From IMG/VR virus record IMGVR_UViG_3300019458_000039, positions 1 through 57,436 of that record: a DNA stretch of 57,436 nt; one strand, 5' to 3'. The position numbers and the translations under genes were made by a program. The notes under the pieces are model-generated. The model ran no database searches, had not been told where the DNA came from, and was given only the letters and a program-made list of their open reading frames with translations. The DNA comes from a virus. Position 1 is the stretch's first letter; each line of letters opens with the position of its first letter. Positions 1,666 to 54,688 of this stretch are shown piece by piece.

Positions 1666-4600
1666 ATGAGTTATATTTCTGCAATCACGAAAAACGAGGA
1701 CGTCATCGTTTGGGAGCGAGACGAGAATGGCCGAACAGAAGTCGTTTACCCGGCACCGCACTATTTCTACATTGATAACGTCAATGGCAAGTATCGAACG
1801 ATTTATGGAGATCGAGTTTCCAGAGTTGAATGCATTAGCAAAAGCGATTTTTACAACAAACGTCAAGAATACGAACGCAATGGACACACTTTGTACGAAA
1901 GTGACATCGCATCAGAACAACGCGTTCTTTCAATGGCATACTATGCCAAACCAGCACCAAAGCTTCATATCACGTTTCTAGACATTGAGGTTGATTATAA
2001 CCCCGAACTGGGCTTCGCAGGCGTTCAAAATCCCTATGCTCCCATTAGTTCAATTGCTATGTTTCACGAATGGAGCAATGAATTGGTTGTCTACACCGTT
2101 CCACCAGAAGCAGGATGGACAACCGAACGACTACTTGAAGAAATCGGCAAGGACGTACCTATTCCAACAACATATAAACTTCGACTACACGTCTGTGAAA
2201 ATGAACTCGAACTTCTCAACAAGATGATTGATGAGATTAGTGATGCTGACGTTCTTTCTGGTTGGTACAGTGATTTGTTCGATATGCCATACATCGCAAA
2301 GCGCATGGAGCGCTACAAGATTCCGCTTTCAAAACTCGATTTTCGGGGTTGCAAGCCAACCTGGCGCGAAGTGTTCTCCAAAGCTATTGTTGATGTGCAA
2401 ACAGGAGAACGAAAGAAACTTGGTGATACGATCGATCTTGAAGGTCGAATCCGTGTTGACTATCAATTACTATACAAAAAATACGAAGTAGCTGATAAAC
2501 CATCATACAAACTAGCATCAATCGAACAAGAGGTTGGTCTGGGACTTCCAAAGTTGGAATATCAAGGCTCATTACATGATTTGTATCGGAAGAACTACGG
2601 GTTCTTCACACGATACAACATTCGAGATGTTGAAATTCTGCACGGTTTCGAACAAAAGCTTGGCTACATCGAGCTTGCAAATCAAATGTATCACATTTCA
2701 ACCGGATTATTCGAGCACGTCACGGGCACTTTGAAACTAGCAGAGTTTGCTATCATTAACTATTGTCATCACGTGTTGAAACGTGTTGTACAAAATGCAA
2801 AGCCACCAGCCGTTGATCAACAAATTGCAGGAGCGCTTGTACTATATCCACAAGTTGGACTGCATGAATTCATTGCTTCCATCGATATCAACTCTCTGTA
2901 TCCAAGTGCTATTCGAGCTATCAATATCTCCCCGGAAACACTTCGTGGTCAGTTTCGTGAAGAGGAAAAAGCAACCGAAGCAATTGCCAAGGGGACTTTT
3001 GCTCAGCTTCATTTAACACTCGAAACGGGAGAGGTCGTAGTAATGTCCGGTGATGAATTTCGAGACTGGTTGAAGAAACGAAAGTGGGCCGTCAGTGGAT
3101 TTGGTACGGTATTTGATCAAAACGAACAAGGAATCATTCCGACAATTCTTGCCGAATGGTATGCGATGCGACGGAAATATCAAGCGATGAAGAAGGAAGC
3201 TGAAGCTGCAGATGATCACGATAAGGCTGACTATTATGATCGTCTCCAGTATGTGTTCAAGATCAAATTGAACTCACTGTACGGGGCGCTCACCAATTTG
3301 TATTTCCGCTTCTACGATCTTCGGATGGGAGAGAGTACAACTGGGACTGGCCGCATGATTCTACGACACCAATGTCGAAAAGTTGCTGAAATTCTTGACG
3401 GCAATTATAATGTTGAGTTTCCTCAATATGATACACCGAAAAGTGCTAGTGAAGCTGGTGTCGCTGATGCGGCTGCATTAGGTGGACCAGTGTTCAACGG
3501 TCGCTTTATGGCAGAATCGGTTCTATATGGCGACAGTGTTGCTGGTGATACTTTGATAGAGACAGTTAAAGGTCCAAGAACGATTGAAAGTTTATTTACA
3601 GCAACCAATAAACAAATTGACAAGAAAGAATATTGTTTCTTACAAGACCAACAAGCGCTTACTTACGATAAAGAAACAAAACAAACGTGTTTTAGACCAA
3701 TTAAATACGTGATGCGTCATAAAACAACCAAACAATTATATCGCGTGTGGATTACAAATCGTCAATATGTGGACTTGACTGAAGACCACTCTTTAATAAC
3801 ATACAAAAACACCCAACAGAGAAAAACGTCAGGAGATTTTTTGCAAGAAACAAAACCAACTAACATTTGTTCATCATTACTAACTCTTCCCTACATTCCC
3901 TTTAAAGGAACTTGTCAAACCGATTATTCAAAACATCTTTATACATTAATGGGCTATGTTATGGGCGATGGTTATGTAGATAAAACTAAAACGGGCGGAA
4001 CATTACTTTCAGTTGGAAGACAGGATTTAAATGTCGTTTGTTCGAATCTTTTACAACCTCTAAAGGAAGATGGTTGGATTTCATCGTGGTATGTTAAGCC
4101 AAACGGTCACGATATTCAAATTTCTTCTGTAAAGCTTCGCAAAACGCTGCGAAAACATCTCTACGAAGAAAACCAAAAGATTATTCCACGTTGGTTATTT
4201 ACTGACACCACTGAAAATATTTGTGCCTTTTTGCGTGGTTGGTTTTCTGCTGATGGTTGGTCAAATAATCAAAAGGTTGTTGGCCTTGCAAGTGTCAACG
4301 AGCAACACATTAAAGACATTCATAGATTATTGCTGTTGTGTGGGATATCATCAACGTGGTTTACAGAAAACACACCCAATTCCTATAACGGGCAACCAAC
4401 GGGAACATTTTCAACAAGACTTACAATTAGAAATCAAAAAGACTTTTACTCTTTGGTAGGATTTATACAACCACGAAAAACAAAGAAGTGGAATGAGGGA
4501 CGGAAAAAACAAGCAGAAACACGATACAATCTTTCATTTGCTAAATGTTTAAAAGTTCAAGCTCTGCCCCCAAGAGAACAATACGTCTATGATATTGAAG

Positions 4601-5463
4601 TTAATGATACTCATCTGTTTTATGCGAATGAAATACTTGTTCACAACACTGATAGCACATATTTCCGAACACATTGTACAAACGTCCAAGACGCTGTCAA
4701 AGTTGCAGATGCAGTTGCGAAAAAGGTCAACGAGTCATATAAAGCATTCTTACAACAGACTTTTTTGTGTAATGAAGGCTTCGATGAGGTGATTAAAGTC
4801 GGTAGAGAGATCATATCGGACCGTGGGATTTTAGTTGATAAGAAACGCTATGTATTGCATGTTGTTGACAAGGAGGGTAAACCGTCAGATAGTATGAAGG
4901 TCATGGGTCTTGACACAAAAAAGACCACATTGCCACGTCCTATCGCTGATCGACTTAATGCGTTTGTTGCGGGATATCTGAAGGGTAGCTCGTGGGAAAC
5001 TGTGGCTAGAGAGGTTGTCAATTACAAAGATGAGCTGCGCGCTGTAAAGGATGTGATGCAAATTGGACTTCCCAAGGGAATTCATGGTATTGAAGATTAT
5101 GAGAGGCAATATCGACAATTCGGTGAAGATACGCGTCTGCCCGGCCACGTGGCAGCAGCAATTCATTACAATCAATGTTTGAAGGAGTACGGAGATAAGA
5201 TCAGTCCACCAATCACAAATGACATGAAAATCAAGGTCTTTTACCTCGATGCACTTCATCAACTCGGCGGTTCGAAATTCAAAAGTATTGCTCTTCCAAC
5301 CGACATTGAAGTTGTGCCACCGTGGTTCCTAGAAAATTTTGACATTGACTACGATGCTCACATTGAACGATTAGTTGACAATCCACTCCAAAACATTTTG
5401 AAAGCAATAGGAAAGCGAACACCAACGAAACAAGATTTGTTGTTTGATGATCTTTTTGGCTAG
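1666..5463 (+). CDS. 43: Family B DNA polymerase gp43 with an in-frame intein
   Basis: Replicative DNA polymerase of T4 gp43 type. The frame encodes 1265 residues. Removing the intein (residues 624-994) leaves 894, close to the 898 of T4 gp43. Exonuclease motif I is FLDIEVD (D106, E108), followed by exo II around GWYSDLFDMPYI and exo III YNIRDVEIL. Polymerase motif A is DINSLYPSAI, motif B is KLNSLYGALTN, and motif C, YGDTDS, is split by the intein. The ATG at 1666 has AGGAGAAG upstream. The gene heads a plus-strand operon whose next gene follows after 5 bases. Splicing is needed for activity because motif C holds the catalytic aspartates. Confidence 0.97.
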   Translation: MSYISAITKNEDVIVWERDENGRTEVVYPAPHYFYIDNVNGKYRTIYGDRVSRVECISKSDFYNKRQEYERNGHTLYESDIASEQRVLSMAYYAKPAPKLHITFLDIEVDYNPELGFAGVQNPYAPISSIAMFHEWSNELVVYTVPPEAGWTTERLLEEIGKDVPIPTTYKLRLHVCENELELLNKMIDEISDADVLSGWYSDLFDMPYIAKRMERYKIPLSKLDFRGCKPTWREVFSKAIVDVQTGERKKLGDTIDLEGRIRVDYQLLYKKYEVADKPSYKLASIEQEVGLGLPKLEYQGSLHDLYRKNYGFFTRYNIRDVEILHGFEQKLGYIELANQMYHISTGLFEHVTGTLKLAEFAIINYCHHVLKRVVQNAKPPAVDQQIAGALVLYPQVGLHEFIASIDINSLYPSAIRAINISPETLRGQFREEEKATEAIAKGTFAQLHLTLETGEVVVMSGDEFRDWLKKRKWAVSGFGTVFDQNEQGIIPTILAEWYAMRRKYQAMKKEAEAADDHDKADYYDRLQYVFKIKLNSLYGALTNLYFRFYDLRMGESTTGTGRMILRHQCRKVAEILDGNYNVEFPQYDTPKSASEAGVADAAALGGPVFNGRFMAESVLYGDSVAGDTLIETVKGPRTIESLFTATNKQIDKKEYCFLQDQQALTYDKETKQTCFRPIKYVMRHKTTKQLYRVWITNRQYVDLTEDHSLITYKNTQQRKTSGDFLQETKPTNICSSLLTLPYIPFKGTCQTDYSKHLYTLMGYVMGDGYVDKTKTGGTLLSVGRQDLNVVCSNLLQPLKEDGWISSWYVKPNGHDIQISSVKLRKTLRKHLYEENQKIIPRWLFTDTTENICAFLRGWFSADGWSNNQKVVGLASVNEQHIKDIHRLLLLCGISSTWFTENTPNSYNGQPTGTFSTRLTIRNQKDFYSLVGFIQPRKTKKWNEGRKKQAETRYNLSFAKCLKVQALPPREQYVYDIEVNDTHLFYANEILVHNTDSTYFRTHCTNVQDAVKVADAVAKKVNESYKAFLQQTFLCNEGFDEVIKVGREIISDRGILVDKKRYVLHVVDKEGKPSDSMKVMGLDTKKTTLPRPIADRLNAFVAGYLKGSSWETVAREVVNYKDELRAVKDVMQIGLPKGIHGIEDYERQYRQFGEDTRLPGHVAAAIHYNQCLKEYGDKISPPITNDMKIKVFYLDALHQLGGSKFKSIALPTDIEVVPPWFLENFDIDYDAHIERLVDNPLQNILKAIGKRTPTKQDLLFDDLFG
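3535..4647 (+). mobile_element. Intein in DNA polymerase motif C, LAGLIDADG type
   Basis: A 371-residue insertion sits between YGD and TDSTYF, the recurrent polymerase motif C site. It begins with Ser (SVAGDTLIE, block A), has a block B-like segment around LTEDHSLITY, and ends with DIEVNDTHLFYANEILVHN (blocks F and G, terminal His-Asn), with Thr as the +1 residue. Two LAGLIDADG-like helices, LMGYVMGDG and LRGWFSADG, indicate a homing endonuclease domain with acidic residues kept. By eye the intein looks more A+T rich than the flanking exteins, which suggests separate origin. Confidence 0.95.
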
Positions 5464-5468
5464 GAGGA

Positions 5469-6395
5469 ATGATGTATCCGCGAATTGTTTATTGCGCTTG
5501 GTCCATTGGCAAATTTGTTCTCTTGGCTGCGGCAATGGCAGGGCTTCTTTGGCTTGTTGCTGGTAAGGCAAAGGCCGACGAACAACCGCCGTTCCCTCTA
5601 AATGCTCAATCTGTACTTGTCATCGATGCTGAGACAGGTGAAAAAATCATCGAGAAAAACGCAGAAGACATCCGTTCGATCGCCTCGATTACAAAACTAA
5701 TGACAGCTGTTGTTATTCTCGATGCTCGTCTTGATCTCGAGGAAGAAATCGTAATTACACAAGAGGATGTTGAGGCAACACGAGCGGATAGTGGAACGAG
5801 CCGTTCATTACCAGTTGGTGCAAAGCTCACTCGAGCGGAGCTACTCCATCTGGCGTTAATGAATTCCCAAAATCGCGCTGCCGCTGCTCTTGCACGCACT
5901 TATCCAGGTGGGGTTGATGTTTTTGTGGGTGCGATGAACCACAAAGCACAAATGATTGGAATGTACAGTACAAAGTACGTCGATTCGATTGGATTGCGTA
6001 ATGACAACGTCTCAACCGCCACAGACCTTGCCATTCTCGTTCGACATTCAAGTGATTACGTTCTCGTTAAGGACTTCAGTACATCGACTCAATTTGAGAT
6101 GACAACGTATAGTAAAAAGCGAGCCAAAAAGGTTGGCTTTGGTACCACGAACGGCCTTGTTCGAAAGCCTGATTGGACTATCGAAGTTCAGAAAACTGGC
6201 TACATCAAGGATGCCGGCCGTTGTGTTGTAATGATGACTTCAATGGGCGTGAAAAAGGTTATCGTCGTGTTGCTCAATGCCATTAGTAATGAAGCTCGGG
6301 CTGCTGATGCGTCAAACATCAAGCATTGGGTGGAGACGGGAGAAGCGCCAAAGAAACCGGCACCGCCGAAGAAACCGATCAAGAAACGCAAATGA
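5469..6395 (+). CDS. Secreted D-Ala-D-Ala carboxypeptidase/endopeptidase (S11, PBP7-like)
   Basis: This is a penicillin-binding-protein-type serine peptidase. The active-site triad is complete: S-x-x-K as SITK (Ser73, Lys76), S-x-N as SQN (Ser133, Asn135), and QKTGY (Lys242-Thr-Gly). An N-terminal hydrophobic segment (about residues 13-32, then AKAD) is a signal peptide or membrane anchor, placing the enzyme in the periplasm. The C-terminus is a Lys/Pro-rich tail. The family trims or cuts D-Ala cross-links in peptidoglycan. AGGAGG sits at 5462-5467, so the second ATG (5472) has better spacing than the first (5469). It follows gp43 by 5 bases and overlaps the next gene by ATGA. A role in lysis or wall remodelling is inferred. 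Confidence 0.9.
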   Translation: MMYPRIVYCAWSIGKFVLLAAAMAGLLWLVAGKAKADEQPPFPLNAQSVLVIDAETGEKIIEKNAEDIRSIASITKLMTAVVILDARLDLEEEIVITQEDVEATRADSGTSRSLPVGAKLTRAELLHLALMNSQNRAAAALARTYPGGVDVFVGAMNHKAQMIGMYSTKYVDSIGLRNDNVSTATDLAILVRHSSDYVLVKDFSTSTQFEMTTYSKKRAKKVGFGTTNGLVRKPDWTIEVQKTGYIKDAGRCVVMMTSMGVKKVIVVLLNAISNEARAADASNIKHWVETGEAPKKPAPPKKPIKKRK

Positions 6396-14338: not shown

Positions 14339-15259
14339 TCAGTTGGCCTTTTCAATTTCTGTTTTCAGTGTAGAAAGGAGCGACAATGGAAAGCACTCTG
14401 TCCAACCAGTATATCCTATTTCGGTCAAAGTTTTTGTCTTGTAACGCTGCTTCTTATACTTTTGAAGCAACGTTTGTTCATGTTGATAGGCTTCATACAA
14501 CGTCATTTGTGTAGAAGTAACAACTTGAAAATTCAAACCCGGAAACCGTTGTTTGACATATTTTTTCTTTGTAATTCCCAGTTTACAAAATTGATCTTTT
14601 ACCTGAATAAGGTATAATTGTGCTGATAATTCACATTCTTGGGGATGATTTCGAAAATACTCCTCCGTATAACCACCTTGTTTACGAATTCCACACACCG
14701 AACAGCCAACACCGTTGATATGGTCAGCCGCTCGCTGAAAAAAGTCTCCGTGCTCTTTACAAATAATCCTAACTTTACTGTTCATACCACAAAGAGCTGT
14801 GCATGAATAATCATAATAAGTGCCATGAACTTGCTTGGCCTGTTTGATAAACTCTTTTGTCGTTCGTTTCCTGGTTCCGCCGCAGACAGGACAACCATAC
14901 CCACCATGTAGGTGATCGGTTGGTGTTTGTTTGAAAACACCATGCTCTGGACAAATAATCCTAACCTTTGTTGTTACATTTTTATAAACAACCCGATCAT
15001 ACAAATACTTATTATTGTGCCTCTCATTCGCACGGTGAGCAAACAGCTCCTTTGTCAAGGGTTGCCTTTCATTACATAAGGCACACCCACGACCGCTTGT
15101 GTGATCTATTGCTCTTTGAAAAAATTTACCGTGAGTAGGACATTCAATAGTTACCTTGTCATCAGCTCCTGTATACACCGTTGAAGAATAGTTATAGCGG
15201 TTGCCGTGCTTTTGTTTAACTCGAGCGATAAATTGCTCTGTTGTTAATTTTTTACCCAT
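14339..15259 (-). CDS. Free-standing homing endonuclease, zinc-module repeats plus GIY-YIG-like domain
   Basis: A 306-residue protein. Three tandem modules of about 57 residues share the pattern H-x2-Y-Y-KV-I-C-HG-F-Q-H-G-GC-x2-C (for example VTIECPTHGKFFQR, VRIICPEHGVFKQT, VRIICKEHGDFFQR), each with a paired Cys/His set likely to bind zinc and DNA. The C-terminal 95 residues (QLYLIQVKDQFCKLGITKKK, later YEAYQHEQTLLQKY) resemble the T5orf172/GIY-YIG nuclease fold. It lies between two structural genes, 2 bases from the downstream start. It is A+T richer than its neighbours by eye. Inserting between late genes is typical for phage homing endonucleases. Confidence 0.85.
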   Translation of the reverse strand: MGKKLTTEQFIARVKQKHGNRYNYSSTVYTGADDKVTIECPTHGKFFQRAIDHTSGRGCALCNERQPLTKELFAHRANERHNNKYLYDRVVYKNVTTKVRIICPEHGVFKQTPTDHLHGGYGCPVCGGTRKRTTKEFIKQAKQVHGTYYDYSCTALCGMNSKVRIICKEHGDFFQRAADHINGVGCSVCGIRKQGGYTEEYFRNHPQECELSAQLYLIQVKDQFCKLGITKKKYVKQRFPGLNFQVVTSTQMTLYEAYQHEQTLLQKYKKQRYKTKTLTEIGYTGWTECFPLSLLSTLKTEIEKAN

Positions 15260-35842: not shown

Positions 35843-35870
35843 TTGACTGGTGGAAAAAACCTGCTATAAT
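35843..35870 (+). promoter_or_regulatory. Sigma70-type promoter of the gp55 operon
   Basis: TTGACT (35843-35848), a 16-base spacer and a perfect TATAAT (35865-35870) lie 42 bases before the gp55 ATG. This is the best host-type promoter in the window, as expected for a gene that must be made before late transcription. Confidence 0.8.
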
Positions 35871-35912
35871 AAAAGGAACCCCACCAAAAACAACAATAAA
35901 AGGGCGCTCTCG

Positions 35913-37787
35913 ATGAAAAAAACGAAGAATAAGGTCCGTTCCAAGAAAGTCAAAGCCGCAAAGAGTAAGAAAACTATCGTTAAGCGTGTCGTAAAATCAG
36001 CTACTCCACGTAAACCCAAACTCACCAAAAAACAAAAACTAAAACAAGAGGGTCTCTCGTACTACCATCGTAAAAAGCAAGAGCAAAAACGAGCTGTACG
36101 TAAAGCGCGACGCGAAGAACGGAAAAAACTGACAGCAGTTTTGAATCGACACACTCCTGCGGAGCCTGAAAAAGTCAAAGAAATCATTTACAAGGTTCCT
36201 GGTCCGGTTCGACCAAAGGTCAAAGCACTTCCACCACCGCCTGAACTTGTTCTTGAACGACCACCGCAAGTAGTTCCAAAAAACATCTACTTGAACAATA
36301 GAGACCTTCTTGCTGAAGTCAAACATAGCAAGAAAGATAAACAGATGACAAACAAACTAGCGCAAATGCTTCAGTTGCTATGTGCCAAGTATGCAAAGAA
36401 GGGCAATTTCGTTAATTACTGTGTTGATGGTGCCACACTAGCATTAACAAAAAGTGGTTGGAAAACACATCAACAAATGACAACAGACGATGAGATTCTT
36501 TCGTATAGTCTGGAAACACAACAGCTCGTATGGTCAAAAGTTCTTGAAGTCTTTCGAAGCGACTATTCAAACACAATGCACAAACTCTCAACACAAGGAC
36601 TTGACGCTCTCGTAACACCAAATCATAAGTTTGTTTCTATGGAACGTGGTTTGATTCCCGTTGAGGATATCATCTGCAATGAACACATCGTTTTAATGGG
36701 ACAACCGGTGGCAGATGGTAGGATTATCTATTCCGACAATGTTGTGGAGCTTGTAGGGTGGTGCATTACTGAAGGATACTACAGCACTAACTCTAAAAAG
36801 CGACACTCGATACAAATTTCCCAAAAACAGGGAGCCAAAGCTAACCAAATCCGCCAACTATTACAATCACTCGCTATTCCCCATAAGGAATATCTGAACA
36901 ATCAGGGGATTGTTCTCTTTAACTGTACAGGCACCTGGATATCAAAAATACATCAAACAATTGCTCCGTCCCGTGTACCTGCATGTGAATTTCTTTTAGA
37001 CCTTATTCAAACACAACGACTATTACTTATCAAAACTATGGTGGCTGGTGATGGGTGGATACGACCATCAGGAGGGATGTCATACGTCCAAAAGTCCCCC
37101 GAACATATTGACGCATTCCTAATGCTCTGTACGTTAGCGGGGCAGACCGTTTCTGTTACACCAATGACGTACAAAACACCCATTAGCAGAAAAAATCCCT
37201 GTGGTGGTGTTAGTGATGTACTCAGCGTGAACATTTATAGTGAACCAAAAACTACATGTCGTGCGGAGTGGATTGACTTTCACGGTGGAAAGCAAGCAGC
37301 CGGCGGTCGTAGGAACAACAAACCGAACCTCCCCACCGAGCAATACACCGGACAGATATGGTGCCCACGGACTGAGTATGGTACTTTTGTCGCTCGGCGT
37401 GGCAAGTATATCTACGTCACAGGGAATACATACAACGAGGATATGCAGGGATATGCAATGATGATGCTTGTTCGAACATGGAACAGTTTCGATCCTGCAA
37501 AAAGTAGCAATGCTTTCGCTTTCTTTACACAGTGCATCAAACACTCTTTCATTCAGTATCTAAACCAAGAGAAACGACAACGTGTTATTCGAGATCTGCT
37601 CATCATTGATCAAGGTCTCAATCCTTCTCATGGTTATGGTGAAGGTGAAGGCCGCGACGGAGATGATGATTTCCACCTCAATAAACAGATTGCAGATGCC
37701 CTCGAGCGATTACCAAAGGCCCCTGCGTCTGCGACAACCGTTGACAACCCTCCTGCGGAAGATGATAATCAACCACTGCAGTACTAA
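35913..37787 (+). CDS. 55: Late sigma factor gp55 with an in-frame intein
   Basis: The start is ATG 35913, downstream of the promoter and with AAAGGG upstream. The frame has 624 codons; removing the intein (residues 170-505) leaves 288, against 185 in T4 gp55. The conserved core spans IYLNNRDLLAEVKHSKKDK, MLQLLCAKYAKKGNFVNY, then after the intein TYNEDMQGYAMMMLVRTWNS and FFTQCIKHSFIQYLNQEKR, corresponding to the sigma region 2-like part that reads the late box. The first 100 residues are an unusual Lys/Arg-rich extension, probably disordered or DNA-binding. Together with gp45, gp55 would direct host RNA polymerase to the NNTAAATA boxes seen throughout this window. Confidence 0.92.
   Translation: MKKTKNKVRSKKVKAAKSKKTIVKRVVKSATPRKPKLTKKQKLKQEGLSYYHRKKQEQKRAVRKARREERKKLTAVLNRHTPAEPEKVKEIIYKVPGPVRPKVKALPPPPELVLERPPQVVPKNIYLNNRDLLAEVKHSKKDKQMTNKLAQMLQLLCAKYAKKGNFVNYCVDGATLALTKSGWKTHQQMTTDDEILSYSLETQQLVWSKVLEVFRSDYSNTMHKLSTQGLDALVTPNHKFVSMERGLIPVEDIICNEHIVLMGQPVADGRIIYSDNVVELVGWCITEGYYSTNSKKRHSIQISQKQGAKANQIRQLLQSLAIPHKEYLNNQGIVLFNCTGTWISKIHQTIAPSRVPACEFLLDLIQTQRLLLIKTMVAGDGWIRPSGGMSYVQKSPEHIDAFLMLCTLAGQTVSVTPMTYKTPISRKNPCGGVSDVLSVNIYSEPKTTCRAEWIDFHGGKQAAGGRRNNKPNLPTEQYTGQIWCPRTEYGTFVARRGKYIYVTGNTYNEDMQGYAMMMLVRTWNSFDPAKSSNAFAFFTQCIKHSFIQYLNQEKRQRVIRDLLIIDQGLNPSHGYGEGEGRDGDDDFHLNKQIADALERLPKAPASATTVDNPPAEDDNQPLQY
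36420..37427 (+). mobile_element. Intein in late sigma factor gp55, LAGLIDADG type
   Basis: A 336-residue insertion between NFVNY and TYNEDMQG. It begins with Cys (CVDGATLALTKSGWKT, block A), has VTPNHKFVSMERG (block B, with His), and two LAGLIDADG-like helices (ELVGWCITEGYY and LIKTMVAGDGW). It ends RGKYIYVTGN, with terminal Asn, a Gly in place of the usual His before it, and +1 Thr. The insertion interrupts the most conserved part of gp55. Confidence 0.93.
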
Positions 37788-42305: not shown

Positions 42306-42565
42306 AACAAATAACGATAAAAATAGAAACGCCCTCGCAAATACCCTTCTGGCGACTGAGTTAGCAGTAAATCCTTGGGAGCAGGCTACAACTCCATCTA
42401 CAGTAAGCATGTATTCTTCTCATGCCGTGAGGTTTATTCCAGTCAGCTACGATAATGCGGGGAAGCTACCTGATCTTCCGATTGGAATTAGATTAGAAAC
42501 AAAACAACGAGCGAGCAGACCGACGAACGAAGTGAGGAGGGACGCGAGTGAGTTCGCGAAGCGAA
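42306..42565 (+). other. Intergenic stretch with an open frame and a repetitive GC-rich patch
   Basis: After the ruvC stop the +1 frame is open from 42298 to 42618 and reads like protein (NPWEQATTPSTVSMYSSHAV, then DNAGKLPDLPIGIRLETK). It has no usable start before the ATG at 42409, which itself lacks a ribosome site. From about 42510 to 42565 a patch rich in CGAGCGAGC, GACGCGAG and TTCGCGAAGCG-like strings can form several small hairpins and may end transcription between convergent genes. It may be a gene remnant or a ruvC +1 extension. Confidence 0.4.
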
Positions 42566-42796
42566 TCAATAATTCTGGTGTAATTTGTCCTTTTCCTGCT
42601 CAAGGCGATCTTCAATAAATTCTTGCACGAGTCGGCGTTCAGCAGGCGTCATTGCTAACATATCATGATATTGAATGGCACCACGCATGAAATAGACGAG
42701 TTGAATAATTGATTTAATCAAGTTCCGTGCATCACCTTGTAACTCTTCGAATAAGCGCCGCTTTTCAGCTGGTGTACCAAATCGAAGAGTTAGATA
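42566..42796 (-). CDS. gp51-like C-terminal partner, read by -1 frameshift from the gp26-like gene
   Basis: A 76-codon stretch in the -1 frame relative to the gp26-like gene. It has no ATG and no well-placed start after the GGAGG at about 42825; the frame is open to a TTG at 42847, inside gp26. The product (DARNLIKSIIQLVYFMRGAI, then MLAMTPAERRLVQEFIEDRL) resembles the helical F-M-R-G-x(12)-P-x-E-R motif of short gp51-like proteins. It is best explained as the C-terminal part of a fused 341-residue product made by slippage at 42796-42802. Confidence 0.72.
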   Translation of the reverse strand, partial: YLTLRFGTPAEKRRLFEELQGDARNLIKSIIQLVYFMRGAIQYHDMLAMTPAERRLVQEFIEDRLEQEKDKLHQNY

Positions 42797-42802
42797 AAAA
42801 AA
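42740..42802 (-). promoter_or_regulatory. Programmed -1 ribosomal frameshift signal
   Basis: On the minus strand the gp26-like frame reads AGT TTT TTT ATC TAA. Seven Ts (42802-42796) form the canonical X-XXY-YYZ slippery heptamer, in the right phase for -1 slippage. Three bases later, TAACTCTTCGA (42792-42782) pairs perfectly with TCGAAGAGTTA (42750-42740) over a 31-base loop, an 11-bp stem that overlaps the zero-frame stop. Slippage enters the 76-codon downstream frame. Confidence 0.75.
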
Positions 42803-43590
42803 CTTACCGGATTTACCGGTACCTCCAGTGGAATTGATTGGCGACAATCACGACATTCAATAGATACAACGGGATTCAACCCCCAATTTGCAATCTCTTG
42901 AGATTTCGTTCCAATTTCCTGCAGCATTCCCGGTGTGAGGAGTGTTACCCACTCTCGTATTTGATCTCTATCAGAAATACCATCAACTTCAAGAATCATG
43001 TTGACAAAGATTTCGACTAGGTCTGTATGAATCTTTTTTAAGTCTTTATCGGCAAACTCATCTTGCCCACTTGCAAGTACCGATGTCTGGAACACCTCAA
43101 TAACGTTTTTGAACAGGGCGGGTCGTAGATGGACAACCTGGCCAGCTGATGTTGTTAAAACGAAAACTTGTGCTAGTGTCGTTGGATCAATTTGACGAGA
43201 CTCTCGCAACAATGGGCGAATTGGAATTGTATATGAATGACTCTTTGAGTTTTCACAACCATGCTGATAAGAGACACTAAGGTCGTTTCCATACGACAAC
43301 AGACGTAGTGCCATAAGCAAATAGTCCACGTCCTTCGCGAGCAGGTCGCGCGGTTTAAGGATTTGTGGAATACAGTGTTGAAATACTTCTGCAATACCTT
43401 CACCAGATAAGAGTTTATCGGGTGTTCTCAGGACGATTTCATCAATTCCCGTCATGGGATAGACGTGCACTTCGCCTTCTTTGACAGATTCATCCAGTTC
43501 ACCATTTGTATAAAACAAGGCTTGTGAAGGCAACCGGAACGATTCACCAGGAATTCGAGCTTTCAGCGTTTCAATCAGTGGATTAGTCAT
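42790..43590 (-). CDS. 26: Baseplate hub/tail assembly protein gp26-like
   Basis: A 266-residue protein starting at ATG 43590 with AAGGAG 7 bases upstream. Family features are FRLPSQALFYTNGELDES, VHVYPMTGIDEIVLRTPDKL, AEVFQHCIPQILKPRDLLAK and DVDYLLMALRLLSYGNDLSV, then a degenerate zinc ribbon (QHGCENS and IECRDCRQ). This is the T4 gp26 baseplate family pattern. The gene ends in a slippery T7 run followed by a strong stem, so part of the product should be extended by the gp51-like segment, as in the gpG/gpGT tail-assembly chaperones of lambda. It is divergent from the tape-measure gene. Confidence 0.82.
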   Translation of the reverse strand: MTNPLIETLKARIPGESFRLPSQALFYTNGELDESVKEGEVHVYPMTGIDEIVLRTPDKLLSGEGIAEVFQHCIPQILKPRDLLAKDVDYLLMALRLLSYGNDLSVSYQHGCENSKSHSYTIPIRPLLRESRQIDPTTLAQVFVLTTSAGQVVHLRPALFKNVIEVFQTSVLASGQDEFADKDLKKIHTDLVEIFVNMILEVDGISDRDQIREWVTLLTPGMLQEIGTKSQEIANWGLNPVVSIECRDCRQSIPLEVPVNPVSFFI

Positions 43591-43694: not shown

Positions 43695-46025
43695 ATGGCT
43701 GATATCAACACTCAAGCGATTACTCAAGCTTTTGCAGCTGTCGAAGCTCACCTCGGTTCCATGTCGGCGGCCGTTAAGGATACTATCGATGCCATGAAGC
43801 AACGTGGCGACGCCGAAGAAGAACAACTTAAGAAAACAATCAAAGGCGATGATGAAATAGCCCAGAAACGCCGAGCGACGTTGATGTCGTTGATTAATGC
43901 GGAACGAGAGTTCCGCAAGAAGAAAAAAGAAACTGATAGTAAATTCATCGACGACGCACGGAAGTTTTTGGAGCTTCAAAAAGAAACGGCAGCGCGAAAA
44001 CAGCGTTGGGACGACGCGCAGCTCGCGGGGGTAAGTAAGGCTACGTTCTTGCATCAACAGCAGCTTTGGAACGCACATCGGAAAGAACTTGCTGACCGAC
44101 ATGCAATGCTAAGACAGAATCGCAAACTATCAGCTGAATACCAGCAAGCAGGCGATAAGATGCATCAAGAATGGGAGAGCGCAGAGCGTAAACTAGGTGG
44201 TTTTTGGTCGATGGCTGGCGAACGGATGGCAAAGCAGATTGGTGGTGCTATCACGAGTAAATTGAATACGTTCTTCTCTGGTGCTGCTTTCTTGTCCGGT
44301 ATGAAAGAAGCTTTTGGTATTGTTAAGGAAGAAATCTCATCAGGTATGTCTGCTACAACAGAGCAACTGATGACACTTGGTTATCAGTTGGGATTAACAG
44401 GTCAAGAATATGCAAAGTTGAGCAAGGCACACCGAGATGTTGTGCTCGCGGCTGGTGGAACAACAAAACACCTCGAGTTGCTGACAGCAGCAAACAAACA
44501 ATACGAAGATTTGATTGGTGATAATGCTGAACGTACTCAATTTGTCGCCGAACAGATGAAAATGTTGGCTGAGCGAGGCATTAAGCCGACAGCAAAGAAT
44601 ATGGAATTACTTGCTCCTGAATTTGCAAAATTGCAGAAAACTTCTAACATGACATCGGCGGAATTCAATTCAGCGATGGCAGACATCACAGATGATGCAG
44701 CCACAAGTGCACAATTACGTGCAGCATCATCTGAGGAAGAGCGCGCCGCGATTATGAAAGGAATCGCTGGTCGTCTTGCTGAAAATCGTGCAATGGGTAT
44801 GACAACAAAACAAGCTATTGAGGCAACAAAAGCCTTGAATAAGCTCTCAGGGCAAGGTCCGCTTGAACGATTTAAACAAGCTGCAAAACTTCGAGCGATG
44901 GGTGGCGCGATGGGCGTTGCTGGTGGTGATGAAGCGTCGAGAATCTTAATTAAAGGACAGCGTGCATCAGCAGACGAAAAACAAGAACTGCAGAAATATT
45001 TGTCGAACCTTTCAAACACAATGTCAGAATCACAAATGGGTTCGATTGGTGGTGAAATTTTTGCAGCAACACTAGCAGATAAATTAGGCCTACAAGAACT
45101 AATTGGTCCGACAAGTCCATTTAACACACGTTTAGTTGAAGGAACGAAATACGAGCAGGATTCTCTAAAACTACTTGGGGAAAACAATAAAGACCTAAAG
45201 AAGATCGTAATATTCTTCGACCGTGTTATTGATGCTCTAACTAAAAATCCTCTCTTAATGATTATTACCGGGGCGATCGGTGGTATCTTTGGTATACTGA
45301 AGGGCAAGGCATTTGCTTCGTTGTTGGGAGGAGCTGCGAAGAGTCTCGCTGGTGGAGCAGGAGGCCTATTGAGAGGAGCTGCAGCAATGGGAGGTGGTGC
45401 ATTAGCAGCCAAGGGTGCTTTGGTCGCGGGTGCTGCTGGTGCTGCTGGTGCTGCGGCCTACTTCGGTACACGAGCACTTCTTGAAAATACCGAGGCTGGG
45501 AACAAATTTGAGGTAGGTCTCGGCGGCCTGGTTGACAAAATCATGGGCAAGGCAAGTATGAATGACGCCATCATGGCAGCAAAGTCTCGAGCGGATTTCG
45601 AAAAGATTAGCAAAGAATATGGTGTTAGTATGGAGAGTCTCGGCTTCAAGCCGGGTGGGCCAACAGTTGCACCTGGGGTTCAAGCACAAGCACAAACAAC
45701 AGGAGCAGCTGCTCCAGTGGGTACAGTCGAAGAAAGAAAAGAGAAAGAAGCAAAAGAAGAAGAGAGGAAAAAGAAGATTGACGAGACCCAGAAAGCAACT
45801 GCGACAACAATTGAGACACAATTGGTTCAGATGAAAGAGAACAGTATGACCCTTACACAATTGCTTGAAGCAATGAAGGAAAGTAATGAGCTTTCAAAAG
45901 AAATGCTAACGGCGCTCGCAATGACTGATGAAAAAGAGCGCAAAGCAATGAATGTGGGTGAACGTTTGAGCAACATCAAGAACCTCACAAAGCAGTATAA
46001 AAATTTGGGAACAAACACCGCGTAA
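43695..46025 (+). CDS. Tail-length tape-measure protein (gp29-like)
   Basis: A 776-residue protein with the overall architecture of tape measures. It has long charged helices and coiled coils (residues about 10-160), a helical Ala/Met/Gln-rich body, hydrophobic Gly/Ala-rich segments at about 515-600 (LLMIITGAIGGIFGILKG, then ALVAGAAGAAGAAAYFG) and a charged coiled C-terminus (ERKEKEAKEEERKKKIDE). The T4 equivalent is gp29 (590 residues). The usual 1.5 Angstrom per residue rule gives a tail tube of about 115 nm. It sits next to the frameshifted gp26/51 pair but on the opposite strand, and 57 bases upstream of the portal gene. Confidence 0.8.
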   Translation: MADINTQAITQAFAAVEAHLGSMSAAVKDTIDAMKQRGDAEEEQLKKTIKGDDEIAQKRRATLMSLINAEREFRKKKKETDSKFIDDARKFLELQKETAARKQRWDDAQLAGVSKATFLHQQQLWNAHRKELADRHAMLRQNRKLSAEYQQAGDKMHQEWESAERKLGGFWSMAGERMAKQIGGAITSKLNTFFSGAAFLSGMKEAFGIVKEEISSGMSATTEQLMTLGYQLGLTGQEYAKLSKAHRDVVLAAGGTTKHLELLTAANKQYEDLIGDNAERTQFVAEQMKMLAERGIKPTAKNMELLAPEFAKLQKTSNMTSAEFNSAMADITDDAATSAQLRAASSEEERAAIMKGIAGRLAENRAMGMTTKQAIEATKALNKLSGQGPLERFKQAAKLRAMGGAMGVAGGDEASRILIKGQRASADEKQELQKYLSNLSNTMSESQMGSIGGEIFAATLADKLGLQELIGPTSPFNTRLVEGTKYEQDSLKLLGENNKDLKKIVIFFDRVIDALTKNPLLMIITGAIGGIFGILKGKAFASLLGGAAKSLAGGAGGLLRGAAAMGGGALAAKGALVAGAAGAAGAAAYFGTRALLENTEAGNKFEVGLGGLVDKIMGKASMNDAIMAAKSRADFEKISKEYGVSMESLGFKPGGPTVAPGVQAQAQTTGAAAPVGTVEERKEKEAKEEERKKKIDETQKATATTIETQLVQMKENSMTLTQLLEAMKESNELSKEMLTALAMTDEKERKAMNVGERLSNIKNLTKQYKNLGTNTA

Positions 46026-46082: not shown

Positions 46083-49000
46083 ATGGCAAAGTTCGTCGAT
46101 TTTTTCAAGGTCGTCCAACCAAGAGTTGGTACGACAACAATGACCGATAGTCAGGCGCTTGGTGATCAAGGCGTCTATGCAAACTACACATGGTATCAAC
46201 GTCTCATTCAAGGTTCCGCGTCTCGTATTACACGTTATCGTGAATATGATTTGATGGACAACGACGTTGAAGTGGCACGTGCTCTCGACACAATCGCTGA
46301 AGAGATGACAGGCAGCAACCCACAGGTGGAAATGCCAATCGAGTTGTATGTGAAACAAGAGAAGGAAGAATTCATTCCACCTTCAATCGTCATGACACTG
46401 AAATCAGCATTGCGCTACTGGTGTGATCTTCATGACTGGGAAACACGATTGTTTAAAGTTGCTCGAACAACTATCAAGTATGGAGATTGTTTCTTTCTTC
46501 GAAAGAGCGACACAAGAAAATGGGAATACCTTCATCCAAAAAACGTTGTCGCTGCTATTGTTGATGAAAATGACATGACAAGAGTGCTTGGATGGCAGAT
46601 CAAGCAAGAAATTAAAACACCTAACTCACCATATAATTCACCTGTTGGTCATTTTGGTAAGTATGCCGAAACACAGGTCGACACATTCACAGCGGATGAG
46701 ATTGTTTGGTTTACATTGAACGACGATATCGGTGAATCGGCTCCGTTCGGAGAAAGCGTGTTGCGCGCGATTTATCGAGCGCAGAAGCAAAAAGAACTTC
46801 TTGAAGATGCCATCATCATCTATCGAATCCAACGAGCCCCAGAACGTCGTGTGTTCTATATCGATGTTGGTAAGATGCCTCCTCAACGAGTAAAGACATA
46901 TCTGGAACAAATCAAGAACGAAATTCGTCAGAAGAAAATCCCAACATATGGTGGTGGGGTTGAACAGGTCGATAGTGTGTACAACCCACATTGTTTGGCT
47001 CTTGACACACAAATTCCATTATTGGACGGCCGTCATCTTACGTTGCAGGAGATTATTGGTGAATTTGAACAGGGTAAAACAAATTGGGCGTACAGTATTA
47101 ATCCGAAAACAGGAGAAGTTGTTCCCGGAGAAATTTCATGGGCTGGTATTACACGTCGCAATACGACCGTTGTCAAGTTGACATTTGACAACGGTGAAAC
47201 GTTGGTGTGCACACCAGATCATAAAATTCCTGTTCAAGGTGGTGGATACAAGCTTGCAAAAGACTTGACACAGGAAGACTCGTTGTTCCCATTCACATTG
47301 CGACAGAATGCTATTCGAAACCAATTGACGTATACACAGGTTTATCAGCCTGGTGCAAAAAAGTGGGAATATGTTCATAAGATGGTTGGCAACTATATAA
47401 AAACTAAAGGGCGACACGTTGAGTTTGTGTTTGACGAACAACTGTCAGTAGAGAAAAAGCAAACACTTCATCACGTTGACTTCAATCGATACAACAATAA
47501 CCCAGAAAACCTTGTGTTTATGAATTTTGTTGATCATCGGAGATATCACAACAGCCATTATGAACAAGGAAAATTGAGTCGGGAAACAGGCCGCAAAGCA
47601 TTCAGAGAAAGATTAAATGCTGATCCTGATTTGAAAAGACAGTTTGTCGCAAGTCATGGAAAGACACTTTCTGAAAGAATGAAAGTTGATCTTGCACTTC
47701 GTGAAAAGTTCGTCAAAAATATTCGTTCAAAACCAACACCGCTTAAAAATCAATCGCTCGTATTCACGAATGAAATGTTTGATATCGTGAAGAATGTAAT
47801 TATGCAAAAACCAACAATATCTCTTGATCAACTCATTGAGACGGTTAATCAGCCAGGTTGTGAATTTTTACAATCATACGCAGACGCAAATAAGAAACAA
47901 CAGCAGAAATCGCTAATGGTAAAAATCAAGACTGATGTGTTCTCAAAACGATCTTTGCGAATAATGATGCAGCAATATGGCTATCAGAGTTTCAAAGTTT
48001 TTCGCACATCAATCATTCAAAATAACATTGAAGCCCAAACAATTCAAACGAGTAGTTTGATGAACGAAACAATATCTTTAATTACAAAAGTATCCCCGCA
48101 TAACTTCGCTATTGTCAACTATTTAAAGCAAAATCCAGATGTATGGAAGCAGTATGCCTCTGCATACAATAAGACATTTGACACGGAAATCAATATTCCT
48201 GACGCACATATGTTTGAGGGTGTTGCACATCACTACAATTACAGGTCATTCAAACATCTTGTTAGTGAATTGTCAAATTTCAACCACAAGATAGTCAGTA
48301 TTGAATGGTTGCCAGAGAAAGTTGATACAGGAACAATCACTATTGACGGACACCACAAGCTACACGACTACCATAATTTTGCAATTTCCGCAGGGATTTG
48401 GGTACTTAATAGTATGAATGAGGACTTCTTCTTTGCACAACGTCCAGAAGGCAAGGGGTCGAAGGTTGAAGTTCTTCCAGGCGGTCAAGGTCTTGGTGAG
48501 CTAGCCGATCTTGAATACTTCCAGTGGAAAGTCTTCCGAGGACTGCGAATTCCTCTTTCGTACATGCGTGAAGGCACGGACAACGCTGTCATCACCGATG
48601 GTGCTGTTGGTGTTGCTTATATTCAAGAGTTGCGCTTCGCCTTGTTCATTCGACGTCTCCAACGCTATGTTGAAAAGGTGATGGATAAAGAATTCAAACG
48701 TTATCTGCATGCTGCAGGCATTCATGCAGAAACATCAATGTTTAGTCTACGATTGCCTGATCCAGAGAACTTTGGTATCTATCGCCAGCAGAAACTTGAC
48801 AGTGAATTGCTCAATACAATGTCGACCGCTATGTCGATTACGTGGTTGTCGGCACGCTTTGCTGGTAAGAAATATCTGCAACTTTCAGATGCAGAGCAAT
48901 TGGAAAACTACTACAAGAAGTGCGAAGAGTTGCAGCTCAATCCAGACGATCCAGCAAGCATGGTCAAAGTTTATGGCCCACAACCTGAACCTGGTGCAGA

Positions 49001-49229
49001 AGCCGGTATGGGTGGTTTGGGCGGTGGAGGAGGCATGTTCCCAGGTGCGCTTCCAGCAGGCGGCGGTCTTGGTGATTTAGGTGGCGCTCCAGGCGGCGCT
49101 CCAGGAACGGAACCCGGTGGTTTAGGTGGTGAAACAGGCGCTCCACCAGCTGGTGGACCTGCAGGAATTGGAACCCCTCCAGCCGGACAAACCCCTGAAT
49201 TAGCAGGGGGAATGCCGCCACCCGCATAA
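46083..49229 (+). CDS. 20: Portal protein gp20 with an in-frame intein
   Basis: The frame has 1048 codons; removing the intein (residues 304-776) leaves 575, against 524 in T4 gp20. Diagnostic portal segments are RYREYDLMDNDVEVARALDT, APFGESVLRAIYRAQKQ, AIIIYRIQRAPERRVFYIDV, and after the intein NEDFFFAQRPEGKGSKVEVL followed by PGGQGLGELADLEYFQ. The dodecameric ring is the DNA gate and head-tail joint. The last 85 residues are an added Gly/Pro/Ala-rich tail, not present in T4. Ribosome site TAGGACC and a late box precede it. It is followed by the prohead core genes in T4 order. Confidence 0.94.
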   Translation: MAKFVDFFKVVQPRVGTTTMTDSQALGDQGVYANYTWYQRLIQGSASRITRYREYDLMDNDVEVARALDTIAEEMTGSNPQVEMPIELYVKQEKEEFIPPSIVMTLKSALRYWCDLHDWETRLFKVARTTIKYGDCFFLRKSDTRKWEYLHPKNVVAAIVDENDMTRVLGWQIKQEIKTPNSPYNSPVGHFGKYAETQVDTFTADEIVWFTLNDDIGESAPFGESVLRAIYRAQKQKELLEDAIIIYRIQRAPERRVFYIDVGKMPPQRVKTYLEQIKNEIRQKKIPTYGGGVEQVDSVYNPHCLALDTQIPLLDGRHLTLQEIIGEFEQGKTNWAYSINPKTGEVVPGEISWAGITRRNTTVVKLTFDNGETLVCTPDHKIPVQGGGYKLAKDLTQEDSLFPFTLRQNAIRNQLTYTQVYQPGAKKWEYVHKMVGNYIKTKGRHVEFVFDEQLSVEKKQTLHHVDFNRYNNNPENLVFMNFVDHRRYHNSHYEQGKLSRETGRKAFRERLNADPDLKRQFVASHGKTLSERMKVDLALREKFVKNIRSKPTPLKNQSLVFTNEMFDIVKNVIMQKPTISLDQLIETVNQPGCEFLQSYADANKKQQQKSLMVKIKTDVFSKRSLRIMMQQYGYQSFKVFRTSIIQNNIEAQTIQTSSLMNETISLITKVSPHNFAIVNYLKQNPDVWKQYASAYNKTFDTEINIPDAHMFEGVAHHYNYRSFKHLVSELSNFNHKIVSIEWLPEKVDTGTITIDGHHKLHDYHNFAISAGIWVLNSMNEDFFFAQRPEGKGSKVEVLPGGQGLGELADLEYFQWKVFRGLRIPLSYMREGTDNAVITDGAVGVAYIQELRFALFIRRLQRYVEKVMDKEFKRYLHAAGIHAETSMFSLRLPDPENFGIYRQQKLDSELLNTMSTAMSITWLSARFAGKKYLQLSDAEQLENYYKKCEELQLNPDDPASMVKVYGPQPEPGAEAGMGGLGGGGGMFPGALPAGGGLGDLGGAPGGAPGTEPGGLGGETGAPPAGGPAGIGTPPAGQTPELAGGMPPPA
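46992..48410 (+). mobile_element. Intein in portal protein gp20, HNH type
   Basis: A 473-residue insertion between VYNPH and SMNEDFFF. It begins with Cys (CLALDTQIPLLDGRHLTLQE, block A), has VCTPDHKIPVQGGGYKLA (block B), and ends HDYHNFAISAGIWVLN with +1 Ser; the penultimate residue is Leu instead of His. The nuclease is HNH-like (LHHVDFNRYNNNPENLVFMN, then DHRRYHNSHYEQG), unlike the LAGLIDADG type of the other two inteins. A helical DNA-binding region follows at about intein residues 250-400. Confidence 0.93.
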
Positions 49230-52969: not shown

Positions 52970-53026
52970 AGCGTTGAAATATTCTCATAAATAACGGTAG
53001 AATACTTTATATTTTTGGAGAACGCT
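52970..53026 (+). promoter_or_regulatory. Late promoter with ribosome-site-masking hairpin of the Hef-like endonuclease
   Basis: The late box is CATAAATA (52986-52993). GAGAACGCT (53018-53026), part of the ribosome site of ATG 53027, can pair with TTCTC (52982-52986) and AGCG (52970-52973) across an 8-base bulge. Late RNA starting near 52999 lacks both left segments. T4 I-TevI is known to be held to late expression this way. Confidence 0.5.
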
Positions 53027-54688
53027 ATGCCCCAAGAAGGTGAACTAGATGATAGCTATCCTGCGACGCTTGAACAGGAAAACAGAATTAAGTTGTTAGA
53101 ACCATTCTCAGGTGCTAAACAACATCATTCAATGCAATGTTTAACATGCCACCATACATGGACGGCTACACCAATTTCCAAACGTCAAACATATAAGAAA
53201 TACGGTGTTGGTGGATGCCCTATGTGTAATAAAGCTCGTAAAAAAGAAGCAACGCAGCAAATACAGCAAATTCACCTAGATAAAATGGCCAATCTTGGAG
53301 TTGTTATTGTGGGTGAATATTCAGCATTGAGATCAACGACACAAAAAATAAAATTCAAGAACATTATATGTGGTCATGAATTTGAGACATATCCTGGAAA
53401 TGTTATAGAATTACAAACTAAATGTACTGTGTGTGGAAAAAGAGATAGAACGTCTACAATCACCGCTTGGTCGAAAGCAAATTCCGCTAAATGGCGTAAA
53501 ACAGCTTCTGAGTGGCAGAAGTATAAAGCTGATGTTTCATCATTGACGTCTCAAACGTACCGAAAATACAAGAAGCATATCAATCCGAAGAATCTCCCCA
53601 AAGGTAAGGCAGGAACCGAAGGAGCATATCATCTTGATCATATCGTTCCAAAACGATTTTGTTTTGATAACCAAATCCCCCCAGTAGTTTGTGCTGACAA
53701 AAGTAACCTGCAAATGATTGGATGGCGTGAAAATGTTGGTTCGCGCAATCACCTAAAAGGAACAATCCCTCCTGTTTTCTATCCACATCTTTCCGCTCAC
53801 GATCGTTTGAAATCATACAGAGACACTTTGACTGTCGATGACTACAAACCATTTTATAAGTTAGGTGATACCATCGTTGATCTCTATAGCGAACAATACA
53901 ACCATGCGATCGTCTTGATTCCTTTGGACCGTTCTCAATCAAATAGCAAAACAGCACTTCATTCCAAAAAAGCACTCGACGCACAGGGGATAACAACAAC
54001 AATCGTCTTTGAGGATGAACTGGCAAACATTAACTTGATACGAAGTAAACTGTTACACAGAACACGCGTTAATGGTGTCGAACGAATTCATGCACGACAA
54101 TGTGACATACGAATGTGTATCCCACAAGAAAAAGCTGCTTTGCTAAATGCTCATCATAACCAAGGAAATGACAACGCCCAAATTGCGTATGGTGCCTACT
54201 ACGCAGATGCTATAATTGCAGTTATGACATTTTCAACACCGCGAGCTGGCATAGGTAAACATAATAAGAAACAGAAAGGAACGTTTGAGCTTGTACGGTT
54301 CGCCACGGACACTAATTATCGTATTCCAGGAATAGCTTCGAAATTATTGAAGCATTTCCAAAACAACAACACGTGGAAGGAAATTTACAGCTATGCTGAC
54401 CGTCGTTGGAGTGTTGGTAACTTGTATGAAAAGCTTGGCCTCAAACTTGAAAAAATCAACCCACCTGATTACTTTTACGTCGTTGACAATAAGAGGAAAC
54501 ATCGTTGGAATTACCGCAAAGACATCATTAAGAACACATTGCCAAATTATGATGCTGGTCTAACGGAATATCAAAACATGGAAAACCATGGTTTCTATCG
54601 TGTTTGGGACTGTGGAACGCTCAAGTTTGTTCTCAAAAACAAGCAAGATCCACAAGAGTGTTGTCCCAGCAATTTTCGAGCAGTATAA
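53027..54688 (+). CDS. Hef-like homing endonuclease (zinc modules, HNH, GNAT-like C-terminal domain)
   Basis: A 553-residue protein from ATG 53027. Two Cys-pair zinc modules lie at the N-terminus (CLTCHHTW and CPMCNK, then ICGHEF and CTVCGK). An HNH-like nuclease follows (AYHLDHIVPKRFCFDNQIPP, SNLQMIGWRENVGSRNHLK). The C-terminal half has IHARQCDIRMCIPQEKAALL and SYADRRWSVGNLYEKLGLKL, the acetyltransferase-like pattern shared by Hef-type phage endonucleases. It lies directly after the gp23 terminator, a usual place for such genes, where T4 relatives often have gp24. Selfish element; spread by cutting an allele without it. Confidence 0.83.
   Translation: MPQEGELDDSYPATLEQENRIKLLEPFSGAKQHHSMQCLTCHHTWTATPISKRQTYKKYGVGGCPMCNKARKKEATQQIQQIHLDKMANLGVVIVGEYSALRSTTQKIKFKNIICGHEFETYPGNVIELQTKCTVCGKRDRTSTITAWSKANSAKWRKTASEWQKYKADVSSLTSQTYRKYKKHINPKNLPKGKAGTEGAYHLDHIVPKRFCFDNQIPPVVCADKSNLQMIGWRENVGSRNHLKGTIPPVFYPHLSAHDRLKSYRDTLTVDDYKPFYKLGDTIVDLYSEQYNHAIVLIPLDRSQSNSKTALHSKKALDAQGITTTIVFEDELANINLIRSKLLHRTRVNGVERIHARQCDIRMCIPQEKAALLNAHHNQGNDNAQIAYGAYYADAIIAVMTFSTPRAGIGKHNKKQKGTFELVRFATDTNYRIPGIASKLLKHFQNNNTWKEIYSYADRRWSVGNLYEKLGLKLEKINPPDYFYVVDNKRKHRWNYRKDIIKNTLPNYDAGLTEYQNMENHGFYRVWDCGTLKFVLKNKQDPQECCPSNFRAV

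Follow-up and report, generated by a model that had tools for sequence, protein, structure and literature searches.

A conserved −1 frameshift of long-tailed phages, which in lambda makes gpG and gpGT, was reportedly described by Xu, Hendrix and Duda in 2004. The gene considered here lies in a window of 57,436 nucleotides (the whole stretch of DNA that was analysed, from IMG/VR virus record IMGVR_UViG_3300019458_000039), and it is like gpG/gpGT in that two frames overlap, a slip site lies near the end of the short gene and a −1 shift would add a C-terminal domain. No sequence similarity to lambda gpG is claimed; the N-terminal part, as an AlphaFold model, aligns best with the HK97 chaperone, and does so modestly. 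Unlike in lambda, where the N-terminal part is about 140 amino acids long, that of the window has 266, and the long neighbouring gene is divergent rather than downstream on the same strand.

According to a T4 review (PMC3004832, accessible text), gp26 and gp51 are hub assembly chaperones and the finished particle contains no gp51, but the same review also cites genetic work that places gp26 in the hub. Papers that cite Vladimirov, Gautam and Davidson (2022) credit it, in the portions available, with the T4-like chaperone pair and with poly-T signals: PRFect cites it for some T4-like phages that, in place of frameshifting, have one short gene and another, longer gene for the fusion, and the Adele paper (PMC12846349) cites it for poly-T signals that direct frameshifting in TAC-N genes of the T4-like type. 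By these accounts the T4-like pair is already published and frameshifting is known in other phages, T4-like ones included; a −1 shift in jumbo phages or in the window's clade was not recognised in the mostly open-access literature searched. The window gene belongs to the same family (PF12322) as the T4 pair, and the −1 tail of its clade shows profile similarity to the gp51 C-terminus. It differs in that T4 gp26 and gp51 are divergent neighbouring genes, whereas in the window one gene would make both, and in that T4 gene 26 ends GAG TTC TTT GAG, with no slippery run.

The TAC genes of Vandenendeviridae and Andersonviridae (PMC12846349, accessible text) resemble the window gene in having a short −1 C-terminal extension after a poly-T near the end of the short gene, an extension that is mostly annotated as a separate hypothetical protein; their motif, however, is GTTTTT and not T TTT TTY, and they belong to other phage families. 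For cyanophages and marine vibriophages, Sullivan et al. 2010 (PMC3037559) reported a 'reduced' gp51 of about 20% of the usual length, in which the first ~200 residues are missing; by position and family it is the same tail as the one discussed here. In S-RIM8 and a KVP40-like phage we found this tail as a −1-frame extension of gp26, whereas that paper, in its accessible text, treats it as a stand-alone short gp51 and does not use the word frameshift. In view of the comparisons set out below, we consider it highly probable that the window gene is a tail assembly chaperone gene of the lambda G/GT type, of T4-like (PF12322, gp26) kind, with a −1 frameshift.

The gp26-like gene and its junction

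The features of the locus are as follows, with the kind of evidence in brackets.

42790 to 43590, minus strand: gp26-like gene (PF12322) with a 266-aa 0-frame product, the putative short, G-like or TAC-N form (profile matches, AlphaFold)
42796 to 42802, minus strand: slip-site heptamer T TTT TTT, in 0-frame phase (sequence, conservation)
42793 to 42795, minus strand: 3-nt spacer ATC between heptamer and stem (sequence)
42790 to 42792, minus strand: 0-frame stop TAA, the second codon past the heptamer (sequence)
42782 to 42792, minus strand: 5' arm of an 11-bp stem, its first three bases being the 0-frame stop (fold energy)
42740 to 42750, minus strand: 3' arm of the 11-bp stem (fold energy)
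42566 to 42796, minus strand: −1-frame gp51-like tail of 76 codons plus stop, which would be translated only upon the shift, the putative T-like or C domain (sequence, hhalign, AlphaFold)
43695 to 46025, plus strand: divergent neighbouring gene for a 776-aa protein, a possible tape measure (homologues in several own-clade loci)

On the minus strand the 0 frame at the end of the gp26-like gene reads ...AGT TTT TTT ATC TAA, and the stem arms, TAACTCTTCGA (42792-42782) and TCGAAGAGTTA (42750-42740), pair at 11 of 11 positions. Past the slip the −1 frame reads FF-YLTL... and runs for 76 codons to a stop at 42568-42566; by arithmetic, the shifted product from the ATG at 43590 would have 265 + 76 = 341 residues. 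An earlier note made from the letters of this DNA had claimed a T7 heptamer in exact X-XXY-YYZ phase at the end of the gp26-like gene, a perfect 11-bp stem 3 bases downstream, 76 open codons in the −1 frame and a product of about 341 residues; the heptamer proved correct to the base, and the stem, the 3-nt spacer, the open −1 frame and the product length all agree with the sequence. Its statement that the −1 frame has no start of its own does not hold entirely: there is a TTG at 42847, 15 codons before the run, and past the run the first start codon lies 27 codons in. No sequence resembling a ribosome-binding site was seen by eye at that TTG.

The 60 nt that begin 3 nt past the heptamer, the stretch to which the fold z of each junction given here refers, have a folding energy of −21.8 kcal/mol, whereas 200 shuffled versions average −10.5 (z −4.18). 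Three of the 80 mechanically called window ORFs of at least 100 aa contain X XXY YYZ in phase and a long −1 extension past the stop, and the gp26-like gene is the only one of the three in which the slip site is a T run. A chance origin of the signal was rejected on this fold z, the window ORF scan and the background heptamer count given below. Also rejected was a Shine-Dalgarno stimulator: the window has a GGAGG 19 nt upstream, and nothing similar was seen by eye in the own-clade junctions inspected. Right after the tail stop, at 42509-42560, there is a GC-rich stretch (GAGCGAGC.../TTCGCGAAGCGAA), which is present in a single copy in the window and, among the loci examined, elsewhere only in those of the near-identical contig; it is possibly a terminator or an inserted repeat.

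The junction in related phages

A tblastn search with the window protein identified 68 phage records, all at <60% identity and, among the 60 matches listed, mostly large genomes. The public records examined comprised 16 from that search, seven found via T4 gp26 and four of T4 type. Twenty-two loci of the window's own clade were taken from IMG/VR, 20 of which reach the junction (L046 and L050 fall short of it and were excluded), and a cyanophage-type set consisted of the best 80 of at least 598 relatives. Of the alignments made, A3 omitted L008, L016 and L018, and A1 omitted L016, L018, L023 and L026. Among the non-T4-type public records, gp26 ends with an in-phase T TTT TTY in 20 of 23, and in these the −1 frame continues for 58-82 codons past the heptamer; the three without the heptamer are L018 and both Ackermannviridae. 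An in-phase T TTT TTN is present at the homologous place in 18 of the 20 own-clade loci, or 15/17 once two duplicates and a near-copy of the window (L035) are removed. For the cyanophage-type loci the pattern is uniform, with T TTT TTC 10 nt before the stop in 80/80 (75 distinct junctions). In 78 of these loci the −1 frame continues for 61-70 codons, and in the other two it is cut off where the contig ends.

The heptamer is also confined in position: in 35 of 40 related gp26 genes the last 90 nt contain T TTT TTN in phase (70 nt from the stop in L008), and outside that stretch it occurs at two of 9,503 codon positions. In all 35 heptamer-bearing genes the −1 frame is open for 58-83 codons past the heptamer. 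The first T of the heptamer comes from various codons in the different loci (AGT, GCT, TCT, ACT, AAT, CAT, GAT, GGT, CGT or TAT), and this base is therefore not fixed by one amino acid. The conserved in-phase heptamer and −1 extension thus support the analogy with a G/GT-type frameshift that the earlier note had drawn.

Variation within the −1 frame, counted at codon positions 1/2/3 over alignable pairs, was 52/41/70, 36/16/57 and 4734/3707/8246 in the three sets. The idea that the tail is a decayed sequence was rejected, given that third positions vary most in all three sets.

Several loci depart from the common arrangement. The own-clade locus L031 (TCG TTT TTT TCG) has no canonical heptamer, and its tail is still in the −1 frame. 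The same is true of the tail of own-clade L041, on a 363-kb contig, in which TCT TAT TTT ATG replaces the T run; this locus is a natural test of the heptamer requirement. A huge-phage relative, L018 (LR756508), was seen by eye to have tail-like sequence in the +1 frame at 2198-2500, with no T run and with an ATG upstream, which is another way to make or separate the tail. The Ackermannviridae L023 and L026 keep the tail in the −1 frame with no tandem slip heptamer; their gp26 3' ends (G GTT TTC ATC TGA; C GTT TTT CGC TAA TG) resemble the GTTTTT motif reported for Vandenendeviridae.

Downstream of the heptamer, RNA folding was enriched in each set (the folding and start-codon counts omit the heptamer-less loci L018, L023, L026, L031 and L041). 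The mean fold z was −1.63 in the own clade (n = 16), −1.18 in the records (n = 20) and −1.52 in the cyanophage-type loci (n = 74), as against −0.90 to +0.67 for four flanking control stretches per set, with p values for the excess of 4e-4, 0.009 and 1e-16, respectively. Helices of 6 bp or more that begin 3-9 nt past the heptamer were present at 47 of 111 junctions versus 63 of 329 controls (p 2e-6). This excess was seen in the public records (11/20 versus 14/60, p 0.010) and in the cyanophage-type loci (30/75 versus 36/221, p 4e-5), but it was not significant in the own clade alone (6/16 versus 13/48, p 0.31). The stem sequences compared vary from lineage to lineage. The most frequent stem start is 6 nt in the own clade and the records and 5 nt in the cyanophage-type loci, and in the window the start would move from 3 nt to 6 nt if three basal pairs opened. 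The concern, raised at the outset, that the window spacer is shorter than usual is eased by these values.

The alternative to a frameshift that survives best, which we nevertheless regard as improbable, is that the tail is a separate small gene, unfused to gp26, which ribosomes enter at a start of its own or by re-initiating once they have reached the 0-frame stop. Deposited annotations do give short separate ORFs, and 74 of the 111 unique junctions (those bearing the heptamer, with L035 and duplicates removed) have some −1-frame start codon before tail codon 12, in some cases beside the 0-frame stop. An ATG overlaps that stop or lies within a few bases of it in L029, L030, L033, L034, L006, L007, L014 and L025, and re-initiation could occur at junctions where the start codon sits at the 0-frame stop. 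The two Ackermannviridae, which lack the heptamer and of which VAP7 has a stop-start overlap at the gp26 end, may use this route to the tail. However, a conserved separate start for the tail, which the earlier note had named as grounds for refuting the frameshift, was looked for in the relatives and none was found. No ATG, GTG or TTG is present from the −1-frame 5' stop through tail codon 12 at 37 of the 111 unique junctions (9/16 in the own clade, 11/20 in the records and 17/75 in the cyanophage-type set); the window has only its upstream TTG in this frame, and PA5oct has no start codon in the whole 78-codon −1 frame. In the own clade and the records, for which the −1-frame starts were listed, their positions vary, and several annotated starts remove part of the conserved tail. 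Re-initiation would also leave the in-phase retention of T TTT TTN unexplained. To judge from these sequences, a −1 shift would account for all 111 junctions, whereas starts of their own could not cover the 37 without loss of the beginning of the tail.

Still less likely is transcriptional slippage on the T run, by which a fused message would be produced in place of ribosomal slipping. It is favored by the runs of T7 to T9 that are reached in the window's clade, but in 80/80 cyanophage-type loci and in 17 of the 20 heptamer-bearing records (all except L003, L004 and L020) there are six T and then C only, and six T is short for polymerase slippage. Moreover, the run keeps the phase of a tandem slip, and there is excess RNA structure after it. 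A split frame created by a homopolymer sequencing error in a gene that is really continuous was rejected, since, error-prone as homopolymers are in metagenome assemblies, the same split is found in isolate genomes with T6C and in 80/80 other contigs, and a second contig, possibly not an independent sample, carries the same T7 in 6801 bp with one mismatch.

Identity of the encoded domains and the neighboring gene

The gp26-like identity proposed at the outset was borne out by a profile match, and the gp51-like identity found support in profile comparisons of the clade. The 0-frame protein matches PF12322 'T4_baseplate' (E 8.9e-7, 29.2 bits, cut-off 24.5) and phrog_150, baseplate hub (E 1.3e-10). 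T4 gp26 and T4 gp51 both match the entire PF12322 profile and are therefore paralogues, and T4 gp51 is, on the evidence of its sequence, a gp26-like body plus a C-terminal tail. The tails of the own clade are similar to those of T4-like gp51 proteins over 33 columns (hhalign probability 83.7, P 8e-6). Residues 147-246 of T4 gp51 are taken by phrog_634 'baseplate hub assembly catalyst', which is also matched directly, with E down to 7.5e-31, by the tails of cyanophages, KVP40-like vibriophage, PhiW-14 and ZPAH1; the window tail gave no direct match to phrog_634 in the PHROG search. Cyanophage-group tails align with gp51 tails at an hhalign probability of 97.3 (P 2.7e-11), and own-clade with cyanophage-group tails at a probability of only 33.7. 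The tails of the enterobacterial jumbo phages RaK2 and Serratia BF and of Vibrio phage 2.275 match phrog_18291, function unknown, instead of phrog_634.

The AlphaFold model of the short form has a mean pLDDT of 84.6. A Foldseek search with it against the PDB returned nothing significant (best E 1.0), and PDB sequence searches with the gp26 alignment and T4 gp51 gave best E values of 0.5 and 1.3; an IMG/VR search with deep alignments yielded nothing useful. Upon VIA realignment to 575 chains the HK97 tail assembly chaperone 2ob9 ranked first (Z 5.9, 99/107 residues, rmsd 4.8), followed by 3klu, YqbN, at Z 5.6, with the third at only 3.3; Z values below 8 can mean a common arrangement, and chains that scored below Z 3.5 were treated as unrelated. 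YqbN is presumably a prophage relative of the tail chaperones. Compared with predicted viral proteins, the short-form model had named matches that were largely T4-like baseplate hub proteins. When FF and the tail are modelled together, the result consists entirely of helices (2-8, 11-40, 45-49 and 53-71; mean pLDDT 83.7).

The earlier note had also placed the gene pair next to the tape measure gene, on the opposite strand. A divergent gene of 776 aa is indeed present there. It may encode the tape measure, but searches of PHROG, Pfam and NCBIfam gave no informative match that would identify it as such. A tblastn search with this protein identified a homologous divergent gene in several own-clade loci and no match in the jumbo-phage, cyanophage, KVP40-like or T4 loci tested. 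The RaK2 record annotates 'similar to tape measure', a note that does not transfer by sequence because the window neighbor has no jumbo-phage match. In XacN1, CM1, L048 and L049 a shorter gene occupies the neighbor position, and in the hydrophobicity profile of the 776-aa protein one 19-mer is above threshold.

Other genes were noted in passing. In S-RIM8 (L022) the gene directly after the tail, 3362-5674, matches phrog_790 'endolysin' over 771 aa, a label that looks doubtful at that position. By eye, the DNA polymerase, sigma-factor-like and portal-like ORFs of the window (1666-5463, 35850-37787 and 46083-49229) have apparent in-frame intein-like insertions, and the ORFs at 14339-15259 and 53015-54688 are homing-endonuclease-associated-like, with repeated zinc-binding-like motifs.

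From the sequence evidence we infer that the −1 shift occurs, and the proposal for its rate and for chaperone function is as follows. Most ribosomes would end at 42790 and release the 266-residue short form (TAC-N, lambda gpG-like). A minority would be stalled by the hairpin while two tRNA-Phe occupy T TTT TTT; by moving one base backwards, these ribosomes would avoid the stop and extend the chain by 76 residues to the 341-residue long form (TAC-NC, lambda gpGT-like). The added helical tail would be the domain found at the C-terminal end of T4 gp51. If lambda is a guide, the short form would bind tail tube subunits, and the tail would recruit the tape measure protein during tail assembly.

Origin of the T4 gene pair

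In a tree of 25 gp26-like bodies, which was midpoint rooted and has long branches and several open forks, T4-type gp26 and gp51 are joined (97/93). They fall in a 17-row group together with the frameshifting cyanophage-type, KVP40-like, ZPAH1 and PhiW-14 genes and the two Ackermannviridae. Across a long branch is a group of jumbo phages and the window's own clade, in which 8/8 rows are frameshifting. The RB43 gene after gp51, which we took as gene 26, falls with the gp51 clade, which is a further caveat on the tree. Since the shift is present on both sides of the tree, the T4 pair appears to be the outcome of a duplication that took the place of the shift. We therefore lean towards the view that a single frameshifting gene is ancestral in the sampled part of the T4-like superfamily (Kyanoviridae, KVP40-like and ZPAH1-like Straboviridae, PhiW-14, jumbo phages and the window's clade), and that T4 gp26 and gp51 arose by duplication within the Straboviridae, with one copy frozen in the shifted frame. 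A duplication of this kind would also explain the cyanophage 'reduced' gp51.

If the frameshift is as proposed, one frameshifted chaperone gene would replace two hypothetical or split annotations in jumbo and marine T4-like phages, and the short cyanophage gp51 noted in 2010 would be accounted for. The sampled phages would then offer a natural comparison of frameshifting with gene duplication as means of setting the tail chaperone ratio.
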